Shown: piece after piece, positions 1,826-9,972 of the stretch | Position numbering within the stretch: the stretch's first letter is position 1 | Layout: every line of letters starts with the position of its first letter | IMG/VR virus record: IMGVR_UViG_3300025301_000120 | Span: 1 to 23,533 of that record | Strand: one strand, 5' to 3' | Length of the DNA: 23,533 bases | Origin: a virus | Made by a program: the position numbers and the translations under genes | The notes under the pieces: model-generated | What the model saw: the letters and a program-made list of their open reading frames with translations, nothing else | Databases searched by the model: none | Told to the model about the DNA's origin: nothing

Positions 1826-2740
1826 ATGGCACTTAAATCAGAAAATTTTGCTGACGTACTTGATCCGAGATTCAAGCGTATATTTGATGATGAGTATACG
1901 CAAGTTCCAGATCGAGTCGGCACTTTCTACAACGTGATGCCTGGTAGACTACAAACCGAGCGTTTTAGTTCCGTTGGAACCTTGGGGGATATTCCACAGT
2001 TCACGGGTAATCTGAACTATGATGATGTATTTCAAGGATACGATGTGGCTATTACGCCGCTTGAGTTTGCGGCTGGTATCCAGATTGAGAGAAGGCTATT
2101 TGATGATGACCTTTTTAATGTCATAGATCAGAAGCCAAAGGCTTTGTCACAGGCACTTTTTCGCTTGAGACAATCCCATGCGGTTCGTCCGTTTACCAAT
2201 GCTTTCAGCCAGGATAGTTTCTTCTACAGCCATAGTGAAGGCGTTGCACTTTGTTCTAACTCGCACACGACAACCTCTAGCTCATCTACTGCTACTGGTT
2301 TTGATAACCTGGTAACAACCGGATTGTCTGCTGTAGCGTTAGCTTCAGCTAGAATCCAGATGGTTGGGTTCCGTGGCGATAGAGCAGAAGTAATTGGCGT
2401 AATGCCATCCATGCTACTGGTTCCACCTGATCTTTACGAAACTGCGTATGAGATCGTAGGTTCACAGGGCAAGGTGGATACTGCCAATAACAACGCAAAC
2501 GTGCATTATGGACAGTATAACGTAGAAGAGTGGGTATACCTCTCTGATAGCAATGATTGGTTTCTATGTGATGCCAACATGATGAAGAGTGGTCGTGGAT
2601 TGGTGTGGATGGATAGGAATAAGGGCGAGTTCTCATTTGTTGAGGACTTCGACACCTTTAACGGCAAATGGCGTGTGTATGCTCGTTGGGGTAATGCTTA
2701 CGTTGATTGGCGTTGGGTACTTGGCGCACAGGTAAGCTGA
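1826..2740 (+). CDS. Major capsid protein, HK97 fold
   Basis: 304 aa with a strong AGGAG site eight bases before the ATG. The pattern is that of an HK97-fold major head protein close to the Mu gpT-like group. The N-terminal arm (residues about 8-30) is charged. A middle region has an IERRLFDDD helix and a run of hydrophilic turns (SHTTTSSSSTAT, about 148-159). It is followed by MLLVPPDLYETAYEI (about 197-211), very typical of the axial domain, and an aromatic C-terminus with WRVYARWGNAYVDWRW. The length is normal for capsid proteins without a cleaved delta domain. It forms the icosahedral shell, and the neighbouring small genes are probably head accessories. A GC-rich hairpin follows the stop. 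Confidence 0.88.
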   Translation: MALKSENFADVLDPRFKRIFDDEYTQVPDRVGTFYNVMPGRLQTERFSSVGTLGDIPQFTGNLNYDDVFQGYDVAITPLEFAAGIQIERRLFDDDLFNVIDQKPKALSQALFRLRQSHAVRPFTNAFSQDSFFYSHSEGVALCSNSHTTTSSSSTATGFDNLVTTGLSAVALASARIQMVGFRGDRAEVIGVMPSMLLVPPDLYETAYEIVGSQGKVDTANNNANVHYGQYNVEEWVYLSDSNDWFLCDANMMKSGRGLVWMDRNKGEFSFVEDFDTFNGKWRVYARWGNAYVDWRWVLGAQVS

Positions 2741-2833: not shown

Positions 2834-3085
2834 ATGAAAAAAGAATCATTTTTAGGTCGTCCTGTTAAACACCATTCACCAGCCAGGGATTATCCTCGCA
2901 GTACATCTAGGAATTATCCTATATGGAAACACCGTCCAGATAATTTAACACCCGAAGAACAAAGATTGTTAGAACGAAAAAGGCTGGAAATAGAGCGAGA
3001 AAGACTATTGCGTGAAAAAATAGAACAGGACAGGAAATATCGGGAAAGACTAGAGCAGCATAAGTTGGGAATGCAAGGCACTTAG
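2834..3085 (+). CDS. Small charged protein A with shared N-terminal block
   Basis: 83 aa from the ATG at 2834. An in-frame GTG at 2819 would add five residues, but GAAGGCGAAG just before 2834 makes a reasonable Shine-Dalgarno. Residues 1-21 (MKKESFLGRPVKHHSPARDY plus P) are repeated with few changes at the start of the next gene. Residues about 40-77 are a long highly charged helix (alternating E, R, K) that could be a single alpha-helix or coiled coil. There is no membrane segment. It lies directly downstream of the capsid gene, so a head accessory or internal head protein is plausible. No family is recognised. Confidence 0.7.
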   Translation: MKKESFLGRPVKHHSPARDYPRSTSRNYPIWKHRPDNLTPEEQRLLERKRLEIERERLLREKIEQDRKYRERLEQHKLGMQGT

Positions 3086-3149
3086 CGTGAAAAAAGAAAC
3101 ATTCTTAGGACGTACAGTTAAGCACCATTCACCCGCTAAAGATTATCCT
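2834..3149 (+). repeat. Duplicated 63-base coding block (2834-2896 and 3087-3149)
   Basis: The first 63 bases of the two tandem genes align without gaps, with 52 of 63 bases identical by hand count. Most differences are synonymous. Similarity stops abruptly after the shared DYP residues. The pattern is a partial tandem duplication, or fusion of a common N-terminal module to different tails, maintained by selection on the peptide. Confidence 0.85.
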
Positions 3150-3341
3150 CAAACTGAGGATAAGGTTGAATCCGCTTCTAAGGACAAAGAAGGGGAGCGT
3201 GAGCGAGATCGTCCTTTGACAAGAGAGGAAAGGCAAGAACTATTAGATCAGGGAATAATTCCAGGACAACGATCTTATTTCCGTTCTAAAAAACCATCTA
3301 AACAAGAGGACAAAAAAGACCCGTGGTGGAAGGTGTGGTAA
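3087..3341 (+). CDS. Small charged protein B, paralogue of A at its N-terminus
   Basis: 84 aa starting with GTG one base after the stop of the preceding gene; an AAGG lies about nine bases upstream. Residues 1-21 (MKKETFLGRTVKHHSPAKDY plus P) match protein A, with the GTG aligning exactly with A's ATG. This supports both start choices. The rest differs: a charged KEGERERDRPLTREERQELL stretch (about 35-53), then a lysine-rich tail ending KKDPWWKVW. The two genes thus share an N-terminal tag and have unrelated C-termini. Its function is unknown; position suggests a capsid-associated protein. Confidence 0.7.
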   Translation: MKKETFLGRTVKHHSPAKDYPQTEDKVESASKDKEGERERDRPLTREERQELLDQGIIPGQRSYFRSKKPSKQEDKKDPWWKVW

Positions 3342-3364: not shown

Positions 3365-3439
3365 ATGCCTAAAAAGAAAAGTACAAAGAAAGTTAAACAA
3401 GTTAAGAAAGGTAAAAAGAAGAAATCTTCTAAATACTAA
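3365..3439 (+). CDS. 24-aa lysine-rich micro-protein
   Basis: ATG at 3365 and TAA at 3437-3439 encode 24 residues, of which 13 are lysine (K at 3,4,5,8,9,11,14,15,17-20,23), plus S, T, V and one C-terminal Y. One of the strongest Shine-Dalgarno sites in the window, AAAGGAGAGG, precedes it at ideal spacing, and it fills an otherwise empty gap between two genes. Such a polycationic peptide could neutralise DNA charge in the capsid, bind nucleic acid, or be a translation by-product. The ribosome binding site argues that it is really made. Confidence 0.65.
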   Translation: MPKKKSTKKVKQVKKGKKKKSSKY

Positions 3440-3450
3440 AGGGGGTAATG

Positions 3451-3654
3451 ATGGCAAGTCGTTATCAATCTAAAACTAAAGAGAGGTCTGTTGGGCCGTC
3501 AGGGTCACGCCCAAGCCCAGGCACAGGGTCGCAGACAGTATCAGACGTACCCGTTAAGACAGTCTCATGGCCTAGTCTTTCGCCTAAGTCTGGTAGTAAT
3601 ATGAACAAGGTTGGGTTTTCAAAAGTCAGGATACATCCTGCTGGTGATATTTAA
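3451..3654 (+). CDS. Small S/P/G-rich hypothetical protein
   Basis: 67 aa. Two adjacent in-frame ATGs occur at 3448 and 3451. GGGGGT at 3441-3446 is better spaced for the second. The protein is basic, low in complexity and rich in S, P, G and K, with no hydrophobic segment, and is predicted to be disordered until a short VGFSKVRIHPAG end. It is the last of four tiny genes between the capsid and beta-helix genes and begins 11 bases after the lysine-rich micro-protein stop. Its function is unknown. Confidence 0.55.
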   Translation: MASRYQSKTKERSVGPSGSRPSPGTGSQTVSDVPVKTVSWPSLSPKSGSNMNKVGFSKVRIHPAGDI

Positions 3655-4727: not shown

Positions 4728-5576
4728 ATGAGTAGTACCGAAGCAGAAGTAATACTAAACAAAGTCAAAGCAACTAGAAATAGATTTGACAAAGAGAACG
4801 GAACAGTAACGCCTGCCTTTCGTTATTTACGAACAAACGAGAAGCAGTCTGCTGAAGAAGAGTTAGGTCGTATTGAAAGGCGATTAAGCGCACCTGAATG
4901 GGTACAAAGTGGAATGTCTGACGAGGGGCGAAGAACCCTCGCCAGGCGTTCCCATATGCTACAAAGACAGTTAAAGGATTATTCCCCGCCGACTGATTTA
5001 TCGGGGGAAACTAAGGATGCTCTGGAAACCCGTAGAAAGCATTTGGAAGAAAAAATAACGAACAAGATGCCTCCAAGGGAAGTCATGCGGCGTAATCCAC
5101 CAGGGGCAGTAGATTGGAATCGAAATTGGGAAGCTGCGAATAAAGATTATGTACTTGAGTGGAAGAATATAAAGCGAGTACAGAATCCTGATTCTGATGC
5201 TAGGGATCTAGCTAACATTGAAGTATTAAGGCCATCAATTATGCGTCCAGGTGAAACAACATTTATGGCAGACGCACAGATTCCTGGTCATTTTGCCTTT
5301 AGCAATGTGCCAGCAGAAAATTGGCAACGTACCTTTGGGGAAACTAAAGTAGATACGCCATTAAAGCAAGCCGAAAGAGTAGAGGCTGAAGAGGATGTAG
5401 TAGCTAAATTAATGGCAGAGATTAATGACCTCAAGAATCAAGTAGACAGGGCAACTGCAACGCAGCCTAAAAGAGTTTCGTCACCAGAGGCAAGAGAAAA
5501 AAGACTGGTTAATATCAAGAAGGCACAAGACGCACTAAAGGCTAAAAGAGAAGCGCAGAAACAACAAGATACATAA
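4728..5576 (+). CDS. Charged helical/coiled-coil phage protein
   Basis: 282 aa with GAAAGGAAG close to the ATG. It is very hydrophilic and largely helical. Segments at about 38-52, 68-86 and 96-112 are rich in E, R and K, and the C-terminal third (about 215-282) has heptad-like EEDVVAKLMAEINDLKNQVDRA followed by a lysine-rich tail. A middle domain (about 150-205) contains a conserved-looking SIMRPGETTFMADAQIPGHFAF segment, which may be a small folded domain. It lies between the beta-helix protein and the small membrane protein. The role is unknown; a structural or assembly protein is the simplest guess. Confidence 0.65.
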   Translation: MSSTEAEVILNKVKATRNRFDKENGTVTPAFRYLRTNEKQSAEEELGRIERRLSAPEWVQSGMSDEGRRTLARRSHMLQRQLKDYSPPTDLSGETKDALETRRKHLEEKITNKMPPREVMRRNPPGAVDWNRNWEAANKDYVLEWKNIKRVQNPDSDARDLANIEVLRPSIMRPGETTFMADAQIPGHFAFSNVPAENWQRTFGETKVDTPLKQAERVEAEEDVVAKLMAEINDLKNQVDRATATQPKRVSSPEAREKRLVNIKKAQDALKAKREAQKQQDT

Positions 5577-5587
5577 GGGGGTAGGCT

Positions 5588-5749
5588 ATGAAGGGATGGA
5601 AAACTTGGACTTCAGCAGGAATAGCAATGGTAGTAGCGTTGCTGGAATTTCTAGGCTATGGGAGTATCGTTGGCCCATTGTATGCTATAGCGGCTGCGTT
5701 TGGGGTAGTTGGGTTAGGCCATAAATTAGAGAAAGCGAGCAAGGATTAG
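5588..5749 (+). CDS. 53-aa two-helix membrane protein, holin-like
   Basis: ATG at 5588 with AAGGGGG six bases upstream; stop TAG at 5747-5749. After a short basic N-terminus (MKGWKTW), two hydrophobic stretches (about residues 9-25 and 28-44) are separated by a glycine/serine turn. The protein ends in a charged tail, HKLEKASKD. Size, topology and the MKGWKTW-type start resemble small phage holins. The following overlapping gene pair looks like a spanin system, which supports a lysis role. No endolysin is adjacent, and other small membrane roles remain possible. Confidence 0.55.
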   Translation: MKGWKTWTSAGIAMVVALLEFLGYGSIVGPLYAIAAAFGVVGLGHKLEKASKD

Positions 5750-5767
5750 GTAGAAGGACATTGCTAG

Positions 5768-5995
5768 ATGCTTGGATGGCTTGGTCCGGTTGCGACATTA
5801 TTTACTCGAATATGGGATGCCATTGCTAAATATAATACTAAAAGCGCAAAGCTAGACCGTGAAATCAAACGTATTGAACAACTTGCACTCAAGGCTCACC
5901 GTGAAGGTGACATTACTAATTTGCGTATTTTGCATATTCAGCTTAAACGGTTGCGCCGCCAATATGACGATGCCAATCGAGACAGTAGAAAGTGA
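5768..5995 (+). CDS. Short helical protein, candidate inner-membrane spanin
   Basis: 75 aa with AAGGA nine bases before the ATG. Residues 1-21 (MLGWLGPVATLFTRIWDAIA) are moderately hydrophobic but interrupted by R14, so a true membrane segment is uncertain. Residues 24-72 are a charged, coiled-coil-prone helix (REIKRIEQLALKAHREGD, LRILHIQLKRLRRQYDDA). A lipoprotein gene begins inside it in the +1 frame, the classical Rz/Rz1 arrangement. That context, with the upstream holin-like gene, suggests an i-spanin. The weak membrane anchor argues against it; a structural peptide is the alternative. Confidence 0.5.
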   Translation: MLGWLGPVATLFTRIWDAIAKYNTKSAKLDREIKRIEQLALKAHREGDITNLRILHIQLKRLRRQYDDANRDSRK

Positions 5996-7162: not shown

Positions 7163-8194
7163 ATGGGGGCAGCAACACAAGTTACAACACTAGCAGACTT
7201 GCGAAGAGATTTTTTATTTCGTTTGCGTGAAGCTACCAGCGTTACCGACACTAATAATGCGGCTGATAGGTTTTTAAATACTGCGCTTCACGATATTCAC
7301 GTTGCACCAGGGAATTATGTTCCGTGGGCAATTAGGCGTAATTACCTAGAAACCCATGATGACTATACCACTGGTACTGTAGCGATTGATATTTCAGTAT
7401 CTCGCACAGCCGTAACTGGTTCTAGTACAGCATGGAACACAGCCGTTGATGGCATGGGATTTAACAATGCCCGTGTTGGTGGAAAGGTTAGATTTGCTGG
7501 CGAAACAGATGTCTACCTTGTAAGCGCAGTTGGTAGTGATACAAGTATTACATTAGCCCATAGATATGTGGGTGATTCCGACCTATCGGGCGATTCCTAT
7601 ACATATTTCGAGGACGAGTATCCCCTAGAATCCGATTTCTTTAGACCTGTAGACTTACGCAGTTTTAGTAAGGAATTCAATATTCCTCTTATTGGTCCAC
7701 AGGAATTTCGTAGGCGATACCCAGGTAATTATACTATTGGCAGGCCATCGGTTGCTACGATAATTCAGCTTGATTTTTCCAGTAACACTACGCCTCGATA
7801 TAGAGTGGTAGTACACCCGCCACCGGATAATATTTATGTTATTCCCTATGAGTATATAACATCCAATTTAGCGGTAACATCGTCAGGAACAGAACAAGCA
7901 CAATTAGTAAATGATACAGATGAGCCTATAATTCCATTACGTTATAGGCATTTAATTGTCCTAAATGCTCTATATCATTGGTATAGGGACAGGAAGGACG
8001 ATACACGCTCGCAGGAAACCAAGGCAGAATACAACGAACTGATGCAGCGTGTACAGTCAGATAATGTAGCGAGTTCAATTCACGATAGGCCACGATTTAG
8101 TCCACGCAGTTACTTTGGTCGTGGAAATTCCGACTCGTTCAGAAAGAGGCGTTTTAGCACTGGCAATGAGTTTGAAAGTTTTAGGATGCCATGA
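7163..8194 (+). CDS. Head-tail adaptor / tail tubular A-like protein
   Basis: 343 aa with AAAGG upstream. The N-terminus TLADLRRDFLFRLREATSVTDTNNAADRFLNTALHDIH is the helical signature of short-tailed phage adaptor proteins (T7 gp11-like). An inserted small beta domain (about 70-150) carries the recurring VTGSSTAWNTAV...GGKVRFAGE...YLVSAVGSDTSITLAHRY pattern. The region LRYRHLIVLNALYHWYRDRKDDTRSQETKAEYNELMQRV (about 255-300) is a long helix common to this group. It would form the ring between the portal and the propeller-like protein encoded next but one downstream. The C-terminus is basic. Confidence 0.7.
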   Translation: MGAATQVTTLADLRRDFLFRLREATSVTDTNNAADRFLNTALHDIHVAPGNYVPWAIRRNYLETHDDYTTGTVAIDISVSRTAVTGSSTAWNTAVDGMGFNNARVGGKVRFAGETDVYLVSAVGSDTSITLAHRYVGDSDLSGDSYTYFEDEYPLESDFFRPVDLRSFSKEFNIPLIGPQEFRRRYPGNYTIGRPSVATIIQLDFSSNTTPRYRVVVHPPPDNIYVIPYEYITSNLAVTSSGTEQAQLVNDTDEPIIPLRYRHLIVLNALYHWYRDRKDDTRSQETKAEYNELMQRVQSDNVASSIHDRPRFSPRSYFGRGNSDSFRKRRFSTGNEFESFRMP

Positions 8195-8399
8195 CGAAAA
8201 TAATCATCTAAAGTTTATATCAGACATGGAATGTGGTAGCTGCCACGATGTGCCATATCAACTGTTTGGTAGAAGGGATGAGCTATTCCCTGAAGTCTAC
8301 CAATCTATATTATGGCCTACACGATTGAATGTTCCAATTCCATCAAGCGAGTATCGTATCGAATGTGAGATTTGTGGTGGAGATATAAGACGTGCCTGA
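8166..8399 (+). CDS. Small zinc-ribbon protein nested between tail genes
   Basis: Using ATG 8166 the protein is 77 aa. ATG 8226 would give a 57-aa form, and neither has a clear Shine-Dalgarno, so the start is uncertain. Two CxxC pairs are visible (C23-C26 and C67-C70 in the longer form), spaced as in a four-cysteine zinc ribbon. The 5' end overlaps the adaptor gene by 29 bases and the 3' end overlaps the next gene by eight, so most of the sequence is compressed between two structural genes. Its role is unknown. It could be a small regulatory or assembly factor. Confidence 0.6.
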   Translation: MSLKVLGCHDENNHLKFISDMECGSCHDVPYQLFGRRDELFPEVYQSILWPTRLNVPIPSSEYRIECEICGGDIRRA

Positions 8400-9972
8400 A
8401 AAGATACAAGCAACACGAATTTTTAACTTTCAAGGTGGTTATGCAACCGATCTGGCCCCGCAAGTGCGTGAGGTTTCGCACTTACAACGAGCCGAGAATA
8501 CGATATACAGCGTAGGCGGTTCGGCTCTAAAGGTCGGTGGTAGTGTTCGAGTTAATTCGTCTGCCATATCGAGCACCCCTAATATCACAGGGATGCGTGA
8601 TTTCTGGATTACTGGCACATCGGGTACATATACTCAAAAGTATGTATTGATGACTAGCAACCAGAAAATCTACAAGGAAGACATGGATGGAACATTTGAT
8701 GAGATAACTGGTTCAGCTTCTATTACAGCAGATGCTATTCCAGTATTTTGTCAGGCTGGCGATTTATTATTAATCTTTACCGACAAGAATGATACGCCAC
8801 TTAAATGGTCGGGAAGCGGTAACGTGGCAACTCTTGGGGGATCACCTCCTGCTGGACGAGGGGCGGTATTGCATCTTAACCGTGTTTGGACCTGGGGGGT
8901 AAATGCTAATCCATCACGGATAACCTATGGGGCTGGCGGCGATCCTGAAGATTACACAGGTAGCGATACTGGATCAATAGACATATCAGATGATGATGGT
9001 GATAGAATTATTGGGGTAGTATCTCACAAGGATCGTCTATTTATATTTAAAGGTCCAAACATAGGTAGCGTCCACGTTATCTCAGGGCGTACCACGGCGG
9101 CCTTCGCAGTTACTAAGTTGGTAGGTGGCATAGCCTTGCAGTCTCATAACTCCATTGTAGAGGTTGGAAACGATGTGTGGTTTATGAGCGATAGGGGTAT
9201 TCATAGCCTAAGTGCAACGGAGAAGTTTGGAGATTTTGTAGAAGCTGATTTAACTAGGTTTCTTCGGGGCTTCTTTACTAATGAGGTTAAGCGATCTCAG
9301 TTAAATGCTGTTTGGGGTACGAACTACACAAGAAAGAGTTGTGTAGTATGGACAGCGACTAGTGCTGCATCTTCGGAGCCAGATATGATTTTTGGATTAT
9401 CTTATATTCTAAGTCAAGAACAAGGATTAAAGGCGTTTACTTGGCCTGGTCGCAGCTGTCATTCGGCAGCGATAAGAATAAACCCTAGCACTAGCGTGCC
9501 TGAGTTATGCTTTGGAACTACAGGTGGGTTTGTTGAAAGACATGACACTGGAACCAACTATAGTCTGAATAATGGTTCAGATGCTTATACCTTTAGGATT
9601 ACTACGCCTCAAATTATATTACCACCGCCACAGCCAAGAGGTGATCAGCCAGTTGGTTTGTATTCGATGTACATGAAGTCTCGTCCCGTAGGTAATTGGG
9701 ATATTACTGTCAGTTTACAGCGAGATCAGGAAACAGCAGAAAGCTACACTTTTAATCAGGGAACAGCAGGGTTTCTACTTGATACTAGCGAATTAGATAC
9801 TGGTATTCTAGGTGGTAATCCATTGCAGACGGTGGTCAATAATACCCTTGGGGAAGCAAGATCTATCCAGCTTGACATTACACAGGGTGGGCTAAATCAA
9901 AGCGCAGAGATATATGAGATGGGGGTAGACTACGATGTGGTTGCCACATCGGTAGCAGCAGATTTAACGTAA
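8392..9972 (+). CDS. Tail nozzle-like beta-propeller protein
   Basis: 526 aa starting with GTG, with GGAG nine bases upstream, overlapping the zinc-ribbon stop. It is beta-rich throughout, with an N-terminal FNFQGGYATDLAPQ typical of phage nozzle/stabilisation proteins. It has propeller-like blades: YVLMTSNQKIYKED, LLLIFTDKNDTPLKWSGSG, AVLHLNRVWTWGV, IIGVVSHKDRLFIFKG, NDVWFMSDRGIHSLS. The phrase HKDRLFIFKGPNIG followed by SDRGIHSL is characteristic of these tail proteins. It likely extends the tail below the adaptor ring, as P22 gp10 or T7 gp12 do. The specific family is inferred from pattern and position. Confidence 0.65.
   Translation: MPEKIQATRIFNFQGGYATDLAPQVREVSHLQRAENTIYSVGGSALKVGGSVRVNSSAISSTPNITGMRDFWITGTSGTYTQKYVLMTSNQKIYKEDMDGTFDEITGSASITADAIPVFCQAGDLLLIFTDKNDTPLKWSGSGNVATLGGSPPAGRGAVLHLNRVWTWGVNANPSRITYGAGGDPEDYTGSDTGSIDISDDDGDRIIGVVSHKDRLFIFKGPNIGSVHVISGRTTAAFAVTKLVGGIALQSHNSIVEVGNDVWFMSDRGIHSLSATEKFGDFVEADLTRFLRGFFTNEVKRSQLNAVWGTNYTRKSCVVWTATSAASSEPDMIFGLSYILSQEQGLKAFTWPGRSCHSAAIRINPSTSVPELCFGTTGGFVERHDTGTNYSLNNGSDAYTFRITTPQIILPPPQPRGDQPVGLYSMYMKSRPVGNWDITVSLQRDQETAESYTFNQGTAGFLLDTSELDTGILGGNPLQTVVNNTLGEARSIQLDITQGGLNQSAEIYEMGVDYDVVATSVAADLT

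Follow-up and report, generated by a model that had tools for sequence, protein, structure and literature searches.

Two adjacent genes situated directly behind the major capsid protein (MCP) gene of a 23.5-kb IMG/VR virus record, the whole of which is called the window in the following, open with a common peptide of 21 residues that is under strong purifying selection and of which the two copies are old. A core of this peptide, [LC]-G-R-x-V-x-x-x-S-P-A, recurs just 3' of the MCP gene in two further lineages from the same MCP clade, and it is this recurrence beside the MCP that is new here. With a probability that falls slightly short of even, the common start might act as a disordered head-docking peptide on small basic capsid-neighbour proteins, bringing their tails to the particle. 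To our knowledge, few phage packaging or docking tags have been defined by sequence (T4, P1). The features of the window are the following:

1-513: probable scaffold, 3' end only
510-1022: cysteine-containing protein
1019-1750: beta-rich protein of 243 aa, before the MCP
1826-2740, plus strand: MCP, 304 aa, Mu gpT-like with HK97 fold (Pfam, PHROG, AlphaFold2 with Foldseek)
2834-3085, plus strand: tag gene 1, 83 aa, ATG start, pI 10.2 (open reading frame, composition, AlphaFold2), predicted by AlphaFold2 to consist of a disordered tag and then a charged helical tail
2834-2896, plus strand: tag copy 1, MKKESFLGRPVKHHSPARDYP (sequence, comparison with copy 2, core motif in the related loci L022 and L023)
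2951-3079, plus strand: single long charged alpha-helix predicted for residues 40-82 of gene 1 (AlphaFold2 pLDDT)
3087-3341, plus strand: tag gene 2, 84 aa, GTG start, pI 9.4 (open reading frame; tail unalignable with that of gene 1 in a shuffle test)
3087-3149, plus strand: tag copy 2, MKKETFLGRTVKHHSPAKDYP, GTG start, sharing 52 of 63 bases with copy 1
3365-3439, plus strand: lysine-rich peptide of 24 aa, MPKKKSTKKVKQVKKGKKKKSSKY, in the same cassette as the tag genes
3448-3654, plus strand: small 'WP' protein (profile search of the relatives' loci)
downstream of the WP protein: a 311-aa protein, then a 282-aa protein
7163-8194: SU10-type adaptor
8392-9972: virion/stabiliser-like protein

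The gene upstream of the pair codes for an HK97-fold, Mu gpT-like MCP, and this assignment is firm. The protein matches the Pfam families Phage_capsid_4 (PF25209, E 1e-10) and Mu-like_gpT (PF10124, E 1e-8) as well as a PHROG profile for the major head protein, and its AlphaFold2 model matches HK97-fold capsids in Foldseek, the match list also holding encapsulins. Equally, portal, adaptor and stabiliser-like phage genes are found in the window or in its relatives. A preliminary description of the window had reported tandem genes with a common 21-residue start right after the capsid gene, and both open reading frames are indeed located there, the start of gene 2 being separated by one base from the stop codon TAG of gene 1. 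The lysine-rich peptide has 13 lysines and a net charge of +13, with a strong ribosome-binding site, AAAGGAGAGG, ahead of its coding sequence.

Over their first 21 codons, the two genes are identical at 52 of 63 bases, and with the start codon excluded approximately seven synonymous and three non-synonymous changes are distributed over approximately 13 and 47 sites, respectively (Fisher p = 4e-4). This imbalance and the NG86 estimates for the block (dN 0.067 versus dS 0.925) are the reason why the peptide is regarded as kept by selection and its copies as old, and the previous statement that most changes are synonymous holds accordingly. A dN/dS of ~0.07 at a dS of ~0.9 therefore marks the pair as the product of neither a recent copy nor gene conversion. 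The tag proteins have no credible match in Pfam, PHROG, NCBIfam or the PDB, and a tblastn search of the INPHARED phages returned only matches with E of at least 0.5, that is, no close relatives there.

Past residue 21, the similarity of the tails is not above that of shuffled sequences (p = 0.70 for protein, 0.86 for DNA). A looser alignment extending to residue 55 reflects low-complexity charge, and a candidate second shared block, LT.EE...LL, does not rise above shuffles either. The C-termini had been called unrelated; the lack of detectable similarity stands, but drifted duplicates can reproduce it, as in simulations with unconstrained tails at dS 0.93 and 4-12 indels a global score as low as the observed one was reached in ~15-46% of the runs. 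Since drifted tails at a dS of ~0.9 could look unrelated, the pair alone does not prove a tag with swapped cargo, and its sequences appear compatible both with a tag on different cargoes and with an old duplication followed by drifting of the tails.

An ordinary old tandem duplication, in which an N-terminal functional motif is retained and the charged tails drift without any swap, would not require a location in the virion; we consider it unlikely, at a level that still demands attention. The genes are adjacent and alike in length (83 and 84 aa) and in their content of charged residues (43 and 45%), and a dS of ~0.93 predicts tails that become hard to align as indels build up. What duplication leaves unexplained is that the core is carried by another protein in L022 and by an extension of the WP protein in L023, although these copies could be further-drifted relatives of one gene and the product of one gene fusion.

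The related loci support the docking reading, because there the core lies beside the MCP and is attached to different polypeptides, N-terminally in one lineage and in a C-terminal extension in the other, as expected of a portable docking tag. By searches with the MCP and the 282-aa protein, 76 non-redundant related neighbourhoods were gathered. Five near-identical IMG/VR contigs of the window lineage carry both genes with zero substitutions inside either, and the full 21-residue block is found in these five only. Most relatives are without the tag, and in the nearest one (L045/L119, 77% MCP identity) the MCP is followed by the WP protein without tag genes. In L022, the core occurs as MAEILCGRKVVRNSPARVSK and opens a different basic protein of 66 aa, with a start codon that overlaps the stop codon of the MCP gene. 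In L023 (= L046, L131), the core, GGDTLLGRRVVRRSPALIMP, lies 510 nt behind the MCP, within a segment by which the WP protein is extended at its C-terminus. Every occurrence of the core regarded as genuine is located downstream of an MCP gene, at a distance of at most ~0.6 kb. This distribution supports the view of the core as a putative short linear motif that is portable, restricted to one clade and borne by small capsid-neighbour proteins. The union of WP protein and tag in a single chain in L023 would suggest a functional link of the two. Of the preceding proposal of a targeting or docking tag with variable cargo, to be sought on other C-termini in related genomes, the core on different polypeptides in L022 and L023 has been recovered, but the 21-residue block was found nowhere beyond the window lineage; with respect to a loss of similarity in close relatives, the closest one is without both genes, whereas two more distant lineages carry the core.

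In a BLOSUM scan of 1.23 million residues with the window tag alone, the L023 copy lies within the background and the L022 copy below listing, and as L023 is left in the background, the core was judged by the shared motif, its position and its database-wide rarity. Two degenerate DNA patterns for the core, 14 bases of each being fixed, were applied to the whole of IMG/VR (2.9 million contigs). They matched L022, L023, the five contigs of the window lineage, each of them with two copies, and one additional contig, L146; the recovery of L022 and L023 is not itself evidence, because the patterns were designed with both already seen. What counts as evidence is that chance matches amount to about one across the collection, whereas the MCP family comprises about a hundred contigs. 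The match in L146 lies out of frame inside a DnaC-like gene and is due to chance, and a looser match in L125, GRSVQGRSPA, in an open frame of high GC content that is situated ~2 kb upstream of the MCP, was treated likewise. A motif model built from four copies scores these, its own training set, at 41-49 bits and nothing else above 10 bits across 77 neighbourhoods. A literature search for the core motif string gave no match.

The three carriers share one clade of six tips (support 0.905) in a 70-tip tree of the MCP, and random triplets were as clustered in 6 of 2000 permutation draws. The phages with the tag slot are one clade of podovirus-like phages in which the slot is variable and accessory. 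The remaining three members of the 6-tip clade are without the motif, which is thus dispensable or replaceable, as L119/L045 and two other clade members do without it.

The predicted structure supports a disordered tag, followed in gene 1 by a helical tail. In an AlphaFold2 test, an MCP-linker-gene 1 read-through was folded as one chain; the tag has a pLDDT of ~35-38 and is predicted to be disordered, and residues 40-82 of gene 1 (fusion residues 376-418) are modelled as one helix with a pLDDT of 84-98. The tag stays undocked on the MCP monomer, a weak test with a single tag-bearing sequence, as the site may need several subunits or scaffold. In the proposed process, the docking peptide would be produced alongside the MCP and would attach to the head during assembly, possibly through the MCP lattice or the scaffold. 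It would then carry its tail, which is a long charged helix in gene 1 or a charged chain in gene 2, to the interior or the surface of the particle. As the four carriers are without exception basic (pI 9.4-11.5), we lean towards the inside of the head, where the basic tails would be near the DNA.

An anchor for external decoration, with the tag on the outer capsid surface and the tail projecting outward like T5 pb10 or T4 Hoc, appears improbable. The position behind the MCP and the variable tail fit such an anchor, and pb10 and Hoc, in which a capsid-binding segment is conserved and the rest varies more, resemble the tag proteins in this pattern, the N-terminal part of pb10 being the conserved, capsid-binding part (PMC5292684). 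Their anchors, however, are folded helical domains on the outer surface, whereas the 21-mer is predicted to be disordered, and no sequence similarity is established. Furthermore, the beta-rich protein of 243 aa encoded at 1019-1750 is, on a weak Foldseek match, the likelier decoration protein. It is kept in 55 relatives and modelled by AlphaFold2 at a pLDDT of 86, and some of its weak Foldseek matches are capsid proteins of Sf11, TW1 and HFTV1.

There is little probability that the genes code for early-acting or host-directed small proteins which share a host-binding motif and reside in the head operon by chance. Their absence from most relatives marks them as accessory and would agree with such a role, but all accepted occurrences lie within the same short distance downstream of the MCP, and one copy forms part of the same chain as the conserved WP protein of the head region. 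Chance or regulatory conservation at the nucleotide level instead of a conserved peptide, for which nothing but the small number of independent copies speaks, is hardly credible in view of the strong divergence at synonymous sites, in contrast to the preserved residues (Fisher p = 4e-4), and of the rarity of the core across the database.

Among known systems, docking by the tag would most likely work like the capsid-targeting sequences of T4 and P1 or the cargo-loading peptides of encapsulins, by analogy and without detected homology. In T4, the internal proteins IPI, IPII and IPIII are small, otherwise diverse proteins with a short conserved N-terminal peptide, the capsid-targeting sequence (PMC3012670). 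The T4 proteins are taken up into the head and injected. The likeness consists in the conserved N-terminal peptide on otherwise different proteins, with the reservation that the tails of the window pair may be drifted duplicates; the difference is that the window motif is also found in a C-terminal extension and that packaging is here putative. The preliminary description had compared the tag in idea with these T4 sequences. The T4-specific pathway, in which the capsid-targeting sequence is cleaved by a prohead protease encoded with the head genes, finds no support: among the proteins examined from the interval that separates portal and MCP in L023 and L030, two relatives with longer contigs (incomplete genomes, in which a divergent protease is possible), no match to a prohead protease family was recognised, which argues against T4-style cleavage. 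In phage P1, the N-terminal 30 residues of DarB are enough to carry a reporter into the head (PMC9024508). No consensus is reported among the Dar N-termini (PMC9024508), whereas the window motif is common to several proteins, and a prohead protease is predicted in P1. Encapsulin cargo-loading peptides are located at either end of cargo encoded next to an HK97-fold shell gene (PMC7355545), and the tag similarly is a short peptide beside such a gene, N-terminal in the window and L022 and in a C-terminal extension in L023. Encapsulins are, however, host nanocompartments, whereas here the surrounding genes are those of a phage head (portal, adaptor, stabiliser-like); the peptide is another one, it is found on small basic proteins rather than enzymes, and its loading is putative. 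The encapsulin peptides bind in a pocket of the shell's luminal face; for the tag, the weak monomer test described above left the peptide at a pLDDT of ~35-38. The tag is not placed in any known system, because it has no match in family libraries or solved structures and because key features of these systems are lacking or putative here.

Taken together, the motif [LC]-G-R-x-V-x-x-x-S-P-A could tentatively be described, at clearly less than even probability, as a hitherto undescribed portable head-docking motif of a podovirus clade without a prohead protease. At either end of a protein, it would load small basic cargo of variable kind into the capsid or onto its surface, as a viral parallel to the encapsulin cargo-loading peptides that arose independently of the T4 capsid-targeting sequence. 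A searchable motif with natural N- and C-terminal copies and two tagged proteins in one genome offers a direct test of the recruitment of small proteins to HK97-fold shells, and the motif might become a new tool with which proteins are loaded into phage-like particles.

The region 3' of the MCP differs among the relatives and often codes for other small basic proteins. In L057, L120 and L123, a small basic protein of the type VMHEFK-x-G-x-LHSGSK-x-G is encoded at the position of the tag genes, directly 3' of the MCP, and in L051 and L053 the slot behind the MCP codes for lysine-rich chains. By profile search, 58 of 77 loci, window included, have the WP protein 3' of the MCP; it is characterised by W-P-G-x-P-G and an end of the form K-[VI]-K...[ST]-x-G-[ILV] and has no match in Pfam, PHROG or NCBIfam. 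A derivation of the tag from its conserved C-terminal peptide V-K-x-H-P was discarded, because the tag obtains no score from a model built on that peptide. In L022, the WP protein (5426-5956) carries a Pro/Met/Gly-rich extension, in which DLYGRDPAILGLPLGE looks, as judged by eye, like a decayed form of TLLGRRVVRRSPALIMPGE of L023. Finally, a relative of the MCP at 48% is encoded in L113 on a long bacterial contig (290 kb, gammaproteobacterial MAG), a possible prophage that might give a clue to the host of the phage group of the window.
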